From Bacillus sp. (in: firmicutes) (GTDB lineage Bacteria > Bacillota > Bacilli > Bacillales > Bacillaceae): DNA of 35,769 bases. The notes under the pieces are model-generated. The model had not been told where the DNA came from. It searched no databases and saw only the letters and a list, made by a program, of their open reading frames with translations. A program made the position numbers and the translations under genes. This document shows, one piece after another, positions 19,902 through 22,464 of the stretch (positions within the stretch are counted from its first letter, which is position 1; each line of letters begins with the position of its first letter). The DNA is taken from assembly GCA_031180805.1 (NCBI GenBank), contig JAPSLL010000009.1, positions 78,536 to 114,304 on the forward strand. The letters are read 5' to 3'.

Positions 19902-20807
19902 TTAACTATTGTGTAATAAACGTTTATGGATCCAAATAGCAGCCTGGCACCCATCAGCCATTGCTATCGTCACTTGTTCCGAATGCGCAACAGCGTCACC
20001 TGCAGCCCATACATTTGTTATATTTGTCTCCTTCGTCCGCGGGTCAACGAGGATATGTTTATTTTCAAGCAATTCTACACCTAGTTGACTTGCCAGCTCC
20101 GAGTGCACCTTATTCCCACCAAAGCCAATAAACGCCTTATCTCCTTGAATGATCTTACCGCTTTTCAATTTAACTCCTTTAAATATTTCATCTGCAACTA
20201 TGGAATCTATTTCTCCATCAATGATTGTTATTTGCTTTTGCTTAAGTTTGTTTAATAGCTCTTCTTCTATCGTTTTTCCCTCATGATTAATAAACGTAAT
20301 CTGATTTGTAAAATATGTTAAAGTCAATGCCATATTTGCTCCGGTCCTACCAGATCCTAAGATTAATACATGTTTATTTTTCCCTTCATACCCATCACAA
20401 TCAGGACAAACATATATTGAAAGACCTAACCATTTTTCTATATTTTTAATCGGGGGAATATAATCCTTTACACCTGTTGAAATAAGCAGTGTTTTTGATT
20501 GGAATCGTTCGCCCTGTTTCGTACGAACCTTCATCAGCTTATCCTCTTTTTGCGCCTCGAGTACGTGATCATTTATAAATTGAATCCCCAATGCTTCCGC
20601 CTGTTTCCTTCCAAGCTCTCTAAGTGTTTGTCCACTAACACCATCAGGCCATCCAAGTAAATTATGATAACCACGGCAAAGATTTGAGCGACCATTTTCA
20701 CTATCAATTACTAGAACCTGTCGCATATATCTCCCTAGCTGGATTGCTGCCTGTAACCCTGCAATCCCTCCACCAATTATAATGCAATCAAATGTGTCCT
20801 GCCCCAT
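19902..20807 (-). CDS. Thioredoxin-reductase-like FAD/NAD(P) oxidoreductase
   Basis: This 301-aa flavoprotein has the thioredoxin reductase layout: an N-terminal FAD-binding GGGIAGLQAA (about 12-21), a central redox pair CPDCDGYEGK (C134, C137), the NAD(P)-binding GSGRTGANMA just after it, and the C-terminal FAD motif TNVWAAGDA. The pair is CPDC rather than the CATC common in TrxB, and the spacing and the DGYE context also differ. A specialised partner rather than ordinary thioredoxin is therefore likely; the substrate is unknown. The ATG at 20807 fits AAAGGA better than a GTG nine bases upstream. It stands alone. Confidence 0.85.
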   Translation of the reverse strand: MGQDTFDCIIIGGGIAGLQAAIQLGRYMRQVLVIDSENGRSNLCRGYHNLLGWPDGVSGQTLRELGRKQAEALGIQFINDHVLEAQKEDKLMKVRTKQGERFQSKTLLISTGVKDYIPPIKNIEKWLGLSIYVCPDCDGYEGKNKHVLILGSGRTGANMALTLTYFTNQITFINHEGKTIEEELLNKLKQKQITIIDGEIDSIVADEIFKGVKLKSGKIIQGDKAFIGFGGNKVHSELASQLGVELLENKHILVDPRTKETNITNVWAAGDAVAHSEQVTIAMADGCQAAIWIHKRLLHNS

Positions 20808-20904
20808 TTTCCACACGTCCTTTATTGTATTGTTTATATGTAGACTGTGTAAAAGTGGATTGGAACATTCTAAAAATGTAAAAATCGATTAATTGTTTAT
20901 ATGT

Positions 20905-20913
20905 TGTGGATAA
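20905..20913 (-). promoter_or_regulatory. Perfect DnaA box
   Basis: TGTGGATAA is the exact complement of the DnaA consensus TTATCCACA. It lies about 100 bases upstream of the flavoprotein start and about 225 bases from the cluster at 21130-21254. Confidence 0.75.
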
Positions 20914-20959
20914 CCCTCCCTCATTAAAGTAATCATCCGCTGTGTAAGGAATAAAACTA

Positions 20960-21010
20960 AGCAAGTGCCTTTTTTATAAAGTAAATCGTCCTCTATTCAA
21001 GGCACTTGCT
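20960..21010. other. 12-bp inverted repeat with a 27-base interior
   Basis: AGCAAGTGCCTT and AAGGCACTTGCT are exact complements. The minus strand shows only a weak T-rich tail, and the nearest minus-strand gene ends 327 bases away, so it is not an obvious terminator. It sits between the perfect DnaA box and the DnaA-box cluster. Confidence 0.6.
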
Positions 21011-21129
21011 AAGAAAAACCGCATATTTTTCTCATATTAGACAAACAGATACAAGCATTTCAATATTATCCAGTACATAGCTTTCCATTAACATTTTAAA
21101 AATTAAGATATTAACAAGGTAGGTATTGG

Positions 21130-21254
21130 TTAACAACAAGTTATACACAGAAGTTATCAACATATCCACAATTGATATCCACATTTTGTGTGGGTACATC
21201 TGTTCGCCACAATATCTATCAGAACTTATCCCTGTTATCAACAGGTTATACACA
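21130..21254 (+). promoter_or_regulatory. Cluster of DnaA-box-like sites
   Basis: Six 9-mers match TTATCCACA with one mismatch, all in the same orientation: TTATACACA (21141-21149), TTATCAACA (21154-21162), ATATCCACA (21162-21170), ATATCCACA (21175-21183), TTATCAACA (21235-21243) and TTATACACA (21246-21254). A two-mismatch site (TTAACAACA) is at 21130-21138. The 529-base stretch between the flavoprotein and SDR genes has no convincing gene; an open frame at 21032-21253 is unlikely to be real. B. subtilis has DnaA-box clusters outside oriC, one of them in the ywcI-vpr region near the ywc genes found here. Confidence 0.7.
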
Positions 21255-21336
21255 GCAATGTCAGTTGTTCTTCATACTTATTGCCTATAAATTTTATTAT
21301 TCTATTTTATTCGACATGTTCACTAAAAATCTGATT

Positions 21337-22242
21337 CTATGATGTTCGGTATCGTCCTCCATTTACATGAAGAACTTGACCAGTAACATAGCGAGAATCA
21401 TCTGAAGCTAAATACACATAGGTTGGGGCAAGCTCGAATGGTTGACCAGCACGCTTCATTTCTGTATCCAAGCCAAATATTGAAACTTCCTTTGCAGAAA
21501 AGCTCGATGGAATAAGCGGTGTCCAAATTGGCCCAGGTGCTACTCCATTCACCCGAATTCCTTTGTCAACTAACGAAAGTGATAGTGATCTCGTAAATGT
21601 CGTAATTGCTCCTTTCGTTGCTGAATAATCAATTAACGTTTTATGACCTTCATATGCAGTAATCGAGGTTGTATTTATAATCGAGCTTCCATTTTTCAGA
21701 TAAGGAAGACTTGCCTTCACCATATAAAAGAAGGCAAAGATATTCGTTCGAAAGGTTGCTTCAAGCTGCTGTGCAGAAATATCTAAAATACTTTTCTGGA
21801 CAATTTGAATCCCGTGATTATTTACAACGATATCTAATTTTCCAAAGGCAGCAATCGTTTGCTGAACAACATGATAACTTGTTTGCTCTTGGCTTAAATC
21901 ACCGGGAAGTAATAAACAACGACCACCTAATTCTTCAATTCGCTGCTTTGTCTCCTGAGCATCCCTGTGTTCATTTAAATATGGGATGGCCACAGCTGCC
22001 CCTTCTTTTACAAACGCATAGGCAATCGCTCTACCAATTCCACTATCACCACCTGTTATAATGGCAACTTTATTCTTTAATTTCCCACTGCCCTTGTATC
22101 CTTTTCTATCAGAAATAGGCCTTGGTACCATTTCATATTCAAATCCCGGATGGCGATTTTGGTGTTGAGGTGGAAACGTAAGTGGCTGTTCTTCACATTT
22201 TTGCTGTACGGAATAGTAAGGATATAACGGATATTTCCCCAT
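21337..22242 (-). CDS. SDR family oxidoreductase (YhdF/YhxC/YdaD-like)
   Basis: This 301-aa short-chain dehydrogenase has an N-terminal extension of about 55 residues (MGKYPLYPYYS ... FEYEMVPRP), typical of the Bacillus general-stress SDRs such as YdaD and YhdF. The Rossmann loop is TGGDSGIG (63-70), NNHG (141-144) stands in place of NNAG, and the catalytic residues are S193, Y206 and K210 (IDYSATK). The substrate is unknown; the family is linked to stress and spores. The frame is open to 22350, but a strong GGAGG fixes the ATG at 22242. Confidence 0.9.
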   Translation of the reverse strand: MGKYPLYPYYSVQQKCEEQPLTFPPQHQNRHPGFEYEMVPRPISDRKGYKGSGKLKNKVAIITGGDSGIGRAIAYAFVKEGAAVAIPYLNEHRDAQETKQRIEELGGRCLLLPGDLSQEQTSYHVVQQTIAAFGKLDIVVNNHGIQIVQKSILDISAQQLEATFRTNIFAFFYMVKASLPYLKNGSSIINTTSITAYEGHKTLIDYSATKGAITTFTRSLSLSLVDKGIRVNGVAPGPIWTPLIPSSFSAKEVSIFGLDTEMKRAGQPFELAPTYVYLASDDSRYVTGQVLHVNGGRYRTS

Positions 22243-22464
22243 GAGTAACCTCCTTTTCTTTCCTCTCAAATTAAGCCTATTCCAAGGAAGCTTGGGAACA
22301 TCACTATTTTTTTGACTCTTTTTACAAAGATTGTTTATCTCAAGGAACAAAATTGAGGTGGTTTGGAGTGGAGATACGAGATATGTATATGTGCAAACGA
22401 CGAGCGCGACTTAAAGAACAGCAAATCAACTTAAGTGCCTGCAATAGCATCCTGCTTTTAGCAA

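Follow-up and report, generated by a model that had tools for sequence, protein, structure and literature searches.

In Bacillus subtilis (B. subtilis), DnaA binds to clusters of DnaA boxes that are located outside of oriC, and six such clusters have been published. The two that are closest to the locus described here are the ywcI-vpr cluster (region 3, Table 1, PMC4447404) and the yydA(rlmH)-yyzF cluster (region 8, Table 1, PMC4447404). The accessible parts of that paper report high-affinity binding of DnaA to both clusters in vitro, with 11 sites and a Kd of 0.13 uM with ATP for ywcI/vpr, and 7 sites and 0.16 uM for yydA/yyzF. They also report that DnaA directly represses vpr, ywcI-sacT, and yyzF-yydD. 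According to the available text of two reviews, deleting the six clusters together results in early initiation. One review, as far as its text is available, states that this effect is strong only when all six clusters are removed, and the other states that tenfold more DnaA does not cause over-initiation in otherwise wild-type cells; both points speak against simple titration. In E. coli, the available reviews describe datA, DARS1, and DARS2 as DnaA-box loci outside of oriC that regulate initiation, which is the feature that they share with the element discussed below; the comparison with these loci was made by description.

The locus is part of the window, which is the whole stretch of DNA that was analysed and is 35,769 nucleotides long. 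It lies in a gene-free gap between a thioredoxin-reductase-like (trxR-like) gene on the left (19902-20816, minus strand), which scores under its family cut-off, and an SDR gene on the right (ORF 21337-22350, minus strand). The ORF list of the window places the gap at 20817-21336, which corresponds to 520 bp and not to the 529 bases given in the preliminary description. A pattern scan of the gap found seven boxes: the minus-strand box at 20905 is perfect, and the other six (boxes 3 to 8 in Table 1) each have one mismatch and all lie on the plus strand within 114 bp. This agrees with the earlier account of the boxes. An additional one-mismatch box at 20807 is located inside the trxR-like ORF. 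Several of the boxes had been said to be 11-13 bases apart; the steps between the starts from 21141 on are 13, 8, 13, 60, and 11 bases, so that the spacing applies to three of the steps and not to those of 8 and 60 bases. The 8-base step makes boxes 4 and 5 overlap by one base. Several other Metabacillus feature a TGTGGATAA or TGTGGGTAA box closer to the element, and it is possible but unproven that the perfect box at 20905 is related to these boxes.

Table 1. Features of the DnaA-box cluster, in window coordinates.
Feature	Position	Strand	Basis or remark
Conserved element, site V	21104..21256	+	153-position model R1, alignment A1, column conservation; nearly gapless
DnaA-like box 1, ATATTAACA; many relatives ATATTCACA	21108..21116	+	rlmH-site version overlaps rlmH start codon
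Weak DnaA-like box 2, TTAACAACA	21130..21138	+	column conservation
DnaA box 3, TTATACACA	21141..21149	+	box scan and column conservation
DnaA box 4, TTATCAACA	21154..21162	+	box scan and column conservation
DnaA box 5, ATATCCACA	21162..21170	+	top-conserved box, mean identity 0.97 in 44 V copies
DnaA box 6, ATATCCACA	21175..21183	+	box scan and column conservation
Central block, TTTTGTGTGGGTACATctGTTCGCCACAATATCTA	21184..21218	+	no good DnaA box; V-copy conservation about equal to that of the boxes
DnaA box 7, TTATCAACA; many relatives TATTCACA	21235..21243	+	rlmH-site version in yyzF 3' end
DnaA box 8, TTATACACA	21246..21254	+	many rlmH-site copies TGTGGATAA, opposite orientation
Perfect DnaA box, TTATCCACA	20905..20913	-	89 bp upstream of trxR-like start

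The gap also features a strong inverted repeat at 20960-21010 with 12-bp exact arms, AGCAAGTGCCTT, that occurs once in the genome. A 71-nt strand across this repeat folds with a z of -4.9. The repeat is located downstream of the SDR gene, of which it may be the terminator. A terminator scan limited to loops of 3-8 did not call it.

The density of boxes was compared with random sequence and with a sample of the same genome. In 2000 random 520-bp sequences with the local dinucleotide make-up, the mean was 0.29 boxes and the maximum was 4, compared with the 7 observed. The genome sample covers 569,819 bases, about 12% of 4.58 Mb, and consists of the window, 8 stretches that were chosen for boxes or oriC, and 20 further stretches that were not randomly drawn. 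At least five boxes per 350 bp are found at six places in these 569,819 bases, namely oriC, the window, the rlmH site, ywlC/ywlB, gcp/ydiF, and one cluster that is not among the published ones, and the next best place has 3. When same-strand boxes in 120 bp are counted over the same bases, the window is highest with 6 and the runner-up has 4. A pattern of two close boxes gave 9 hits in the whole genome versus 1 for the reversed-pattern control. The window therefore contains a box cluster outside of oriC that is far above the background of this 12% of the genome, and the unusual density noted in the preliminary description is exceptional both against random sequence and against the sampled 12%. 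The ywlC-type published cluster of this genome is located by a threonylcarbamoyl-AMP synthase gene (L175, about 12,700), where the gene at the ywlB position gave no family match, and the gcp/ydiF-type cluster is located between tsaD (gcp) and a ydiF-like ABC-F gene (L169, about 4,300). Another DnaA-box cluster, at L170:15745-15904 (G000 C115), has 7 boxes in 350 bp and adjoins a gene whose matches to peptidoglycan hydrolases are weak; none of the six published clusters of B. subtilis has fitting neighbours.

Similarity searches with the intergenic query matched 47 of 60 genomes, its own genome included. Relatives from the same genus match at most about 160 bp of the 566-bp query, with the exception of one sister genome, and the alignment of the copies reveals a nearly gapless element of ~150 bp at about 21106-21254. 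A pattern scan of a collection of 84,980 species found 107 stretches, and the genera named among them are Metabacillus, Bacillus, Neobacillus, Niallia, Heyndrickxia, Lysinibacillus, Sporolactobacillus, Anoxybacillus, and Listeria, along with others. R1, a sequence-only model of 153 positions from the 21104-21256 region, matches all 40 genomes searched in the family, with two near-full-length copies in 39. In the order, R1 matches 295 of 299 genomes (E ≤ 0.001) and 113 of 114 genera among the matches listed, some of them weakly. Among the matches listed, the best E exceeds 1e-8 in about 26 of the 295, as judged by eye, and these may be other DnaA clusters. In the class, R1 matches 126 of 299 genomes, order members included, and among the matches listed many of the others are weak or partial; strong matches are thus largely limited to this order and a few additional families. 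The context of the order- and class-level matches was read for the fetched loci. The oriC of the same genome (C101, by dnaA) resembles the element in its dense DnaA boxes, however, these are in both orientations and the best match of R1 to oriC has an E of 0.036, from which it follows that the element is not a stray copy of the origin. A mobile origin was also rejected. Partial matches occur in four plasmid records (three from Listeria and one from Priestia) and in four phage records (all from Listeria), and some of these records are chromosome-like in size.

The copies are found at two sites, the contexts of which were read from ORF clusters and tblastn. Site V is the site of the window element, and in most Metabacillus copies seen it is adjoined by the trxR-like and SDR genes. 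Other neighbours of site V are sacT-like and vpr-like genes in the B. subtilis group, pdxK-like and nfrA genes, or sacT-like and chromate transporter genes. Site Y is located between rlmH (B. subtilis yydA) and yyzF, and the genes that come next are usually htrA-like and yycJ-like. The proteins that pass NCBIfam cut-offs are RlmH, the CxxH/CxxC protein (yyzF), SDR, nitroreductase (nfrA), galactokinase, and the pdxK-like kinase. The sacT-like, HtrA-like, and chromate-transporter proteins score under the cut-offs, and for the vpr-like protein the only match is to a serine protease family, likewise under its cut-off. The analyst assigned the names vpr, sacT, yycJ, yycI, and ywcH. In B. velezensis (L155), B. 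siamensis (L148), and B. nakamurai (L095), site V is located between sacT-like and vpr-like genes, and in B. nakamurai a ywcH-like gene and nfrA are present beyond these flanks. NCBIfam also places nfrA and galK near the window element. Because the homologous element sits between sacT-like and vpr-like genes, the window cluster is identified from its sequence and place as the equivalent in Metabacillus of ywcI-vpr in B. subtilis, and site Y as the equivalent of yydA-yyzF. The assignment to ywcI-vpr, one of the six published clusters, is based on the sacT-like and vpr-like flanks and on nfrA. The earlier suggestion that the neighbourhood is the same part of the map as ywcI-vpr is thus upheld; of the two genes that it had named there, nfrA passes NCBIfam and ywcE gave no NCBIfam match. 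The window cluster and ywcI-vpr share the homologous element, the matching place, and many boxes, however, the flanks in the window are the SDR and trxR-like genes, and the boxes of the window cluster are predicted DnaA sites. The yydA-yyzF cluster shares the ~150-bp layout and the non-box columns with the window element, however, it extends into the start of rlmH and the end of yyzF, whereas the window copy is non-coding.

Column conservation was determined from 141 unique copies, from which 8 low-scoring or cut copies were removed. The remaining 133 comprise 34 V copies, 95 Y copies, and 4 that are unassigned. Alignment A1 contains 49 of 86 eligible copies, and 50 loci collected by similarity went into core.hmm. 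The mean column identity in the 34 V copies is 0.83 in the boxes and 0.47 elsewhere in the element, and the two halves of the central block reach 0.88 (21184-21199) and 0.86 (21202-21218). The aligned 80-bp flanks of the V copies have values of 0.28 and 0.26 by a harsher measure that counts gaps against identity. When weaker copies are included (44 V copies), the values are 0.80 for the boxes, 0.82 and 0.79 for the block halves, and 0.45 for the other columns, and the double box is kept in 35 of the 44. Because the pattern scan required fixed letters in parts of 21161-21191, the loci fetched in this way overstate the conservation there, and similarity searches favour well-kept copies. The strength of the two sites differs between groups. 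In Metabacillus the V copy is strong and scores above the weak rlmH-site copy, and in several members of the genus of B. nakamurai, site Y is strong and site V is weak. The preliminary description had proposed that the element may be conserved, and the aligned relatives revealed deep conservation across the family and the order. Judged from these alignments, the predicted DnaA-box element is old and precisely spaced, and it is present in most of the Bacillus relatives searched. No description of the shared V/Y architecture or of order-wide conservation was found in the available text of the literature searched, the journal coverage of which was incomplete. The ywcI-vpr and yydA-yyzF clusters themselves were already known, and the putative ~150-bp element common to both of them would be new.

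The similarity between the two sites extends to the columns outside of the boxes, where the majority base is common to V and Y in 64 of 86; shifted controls gave a mean agreement of 0.27 and a maximum of 0.37. At site Y, box 1 covers the rlmH start codon, which is GTG in 81 of 95 copies. The RlmH-like ORF extends into the element in at least 78 of the 95 Y copies, and the CxxC ORF (yyzF), with endings such as CEYCQNQAIYVVGN, terminates inside the element in at least 73 of them. Part of the conservation at the rlmH site is, by this reading of the ORFs, coding (the yyzF end and the rlmH start). V copies retain similar letters of the rlmH start and the yyzF end without those genes. The yyzF frame contains a stop in 31 of the 34 V copies, and small ORFs across the element were rejected as a candidate on the basis of this one frame. 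The copy in the window appears to have arisen as a non-coding duplicate of the element at the rlmH site. A tree of 44 V copies, 26 family Y copies, and every third of the other Y copies, the rooting of which is arbitrary, places all 44 V copies in one clade with 3 Sporolactobacillus Y copies (support 0.971). A single V clade fits one duplication, although 150 bp is too short for proof. The two sites are on the same strand, with Y 77-312 kb further along, in 27 pairs that share a contig. Neighbouring genes confirm both labels in 23 of these pairs, and in G329, G033, G285, and G263 one or both labels were taken from the order along the contig. In the genome of the window, site Y is 36 kb from dnaA, and the contig that carries site V is without dnaA.

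The central block is a 35-bp region without a good DnaA box that is conserved about like the boxes in the V copies, and its pattern of tolerated changes is, by the analyst's reading, unlike that of a DnaA box. A 22-letter pattern over most of the block has one hit with up to 3 mismatches in this genome. The 17-letter signature GTTCnCnACnATATnTA has two exact hits in the genome, which are sites V and Y; with one mismatch allowed it has 14 hits versus 18 for the reversed control and is not commoner. The signature GTTCnCnACnATATnTn is found in 33 of 44 V copies and the strict signature in 23 of 56 rlmH-site copies. The interpretation of GTTCnCnACnATATnTA as a pure protein-binding signature was dropped because its rlmH-site version lies in the yyzF 3' end, and for this reason the V copies alone bear on a non-coding signature. 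The rlmH-site copy of the window genome (L172:11350-11515) has lost several boxes and has kept GTTCCCTACTATATATA, which by its place would belong to the yyzF 3' end. Five V copies of the genus Bacillus (L236-L240) have lost the block, which shows that it is not indispensable.

The best explanation, which is held with good confidence, is that the window cluster is a DnaA-binding element outside of oriC, the counterpart of ywcI-vpr, that would hold DnaA and thereby restrain re-initiation, that has a fixed geometry and possibly a partner, and that is most likely a duplicate of the rlmH-yyzF element. Counted against it are the uneven retention of the signature, the double box, and the block among the copies, the order matches that may be other DnaA clusters, and the coding share of the conservation at the rlmH site. 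This explanation combines the boxes, density, conservation, matching position, and homology of the two sites determined here with the DnaA binding and the early-initiation phenotype that the accessible parts of the papers report for B. subtilis. DnaA most likely binds the direct boxes at 21141-21183 and 21235-21254 cooperatively. The element is inferred to be on origin-proximal DNA, where its copy number would double soon after initiation, and DnaA held on it would result in less free DnaA, so that re-initiation would be restrained. The fixed spacing, the non-box block, and the near-universal match in the order suggest a role beyond that of a loose sink. An ordered nucleoprotein complex would fit the fixed spacing and the conserved block, and a second protein possibly binds 21184-21218; the complex, the partner protein, and a timing effect in this genus are likewise inferred. 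The element most likely originated from duplication of the rlmH-yyzF element. Most simply, the window element would play the same part in Metabacillus as its counterpart plays in B. subtilis, and by this analogy it probably helps to restrain the start of chromosome replication.

Other functions of DnaA at this locus were considered. The element could be a DnaA-controlled promoter element that was selected for regulating a neighbour gene, as for vpr and ywcI-sacT. The direct repression of vpr, ywcI-sacT, and yyzF-yydD found in the accessible text of PMC4447404 favours this function, as does the box at 20905, which is near a promoter-like site (20853-20824) ahead of the trxR-like gene. However, the neighbours vary between genera while the element is constant, which was counted for a DnaA element and against promoter control. 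Additionally, 21104-21256 is 288 bp away from the trxR-like start and, on its other side, past the stop codon of the SDR gene, a scan found no promoter-like site inside it, and the region is without a clear excess of promoter-like sites (6 versus 3.9 in shuffles), so promoter control is considered unlikely. An active DnaA-switching site like E. coli datA/DARS, at which the geometry of the array promotes ATP hydrolysis or nucleotide release with a partner such as IHF or Fis, is about equally improbable. It would account for the spacing that is fixed over ~150 bp and for the conserved non-box block, and box 6 of most V copies is opposed by an inverted box of poor quality, GTACCCACA (the reverse complement of 21189-21197). 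The inverted box is not retained in the copies of the B. subtilis group, however, and a statement in a 2026 review was counted against a switching site.

A passive fossil, meaning a duplicated rlmH-yyzF piece that is functionless at the window site, is very unlikely. The recognisable rlmH-start and yyzF-end letters of the V copy and the decay of V copies in some Bacillus are consistent with a fossil, but the columns of the element are far above the flanks in conservation throughout the family, and the Metabacillus V copy outscores the rlmH-site copy. The consensus of the LexA operator is GAAC-N4-GTTC, and the idea that the central block carries such an operator or another SOS site was rejected as having very little chance of being correct. 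Four of the 34 V copies carry the consensus, and GAAT-N4-GTTC is common at the rlmH site (35 of 95), but 27 of the 34 V copies, with the window among them, have GTAC where GAAC is expected and read GTAC-N4-GTTC. A structured RNA or DNA hairpin at 21176-21196 was also rejected and is the least probable of these candidates. The window strand is able to pair there, the column pair 21180-21192 partly covaries (CG 69, TA 18), and both arms changed together in four V copies of the B. subtilis group. However, the counts at 21182-21190 (CG 74, CA 27, TG 17, TA 10) and the 35 non-pairing rows at 21180-21192 indicate that the pairing is not kept, the folding is no better than that of shuffles (39 of 200 at least as good), and there was no Rfam match.

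A broader and tentative proposal, which goes beyond the DnaA-holding element favoured here and is doubtful at present, is that a single ancient composite element of fixed geometry, made of boxes and a non-DnaA block and spread across the order, gave rise to two of the six clusters in B. subtilis, and that it works as a dedicated nucleoprotein switch of initiation with a partner protein, as a Gram-positive functional counterpart of datA/DARS. In the accessible text, one review plays down the B. subtilis clusters as initiation control, and another treats the existence of regulators of DnaA-ADP/ATP interconversion in B. subtilis as unsettled. The element bears on whether B. subtilis controls initiation via chromosomal DnaA-binding loci, as E. 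coli does. The original paper on the deletion of the B. subtilis clusters is said to be that of Okumura in 2012. The element supplies two loci for joint deletion and a 35-bp bait for a partner protein, and site V helps to separate the constraint on a DNA element from the coding constraint of rlmH and yyzF.

Further copies were observed close to one another in some genomes. Six Listeria species other than L. monocytogenes (L114, L118, L119, L123, L126, and L151) have two element matches a few hundred bases apart, and the paired matches are at the rlmH site wherever the context is readable. In three Bacillaceae (L067, L097, and L132), a second, partial copy is located ~2.7 kb away with a ~770-aa ORF in between.
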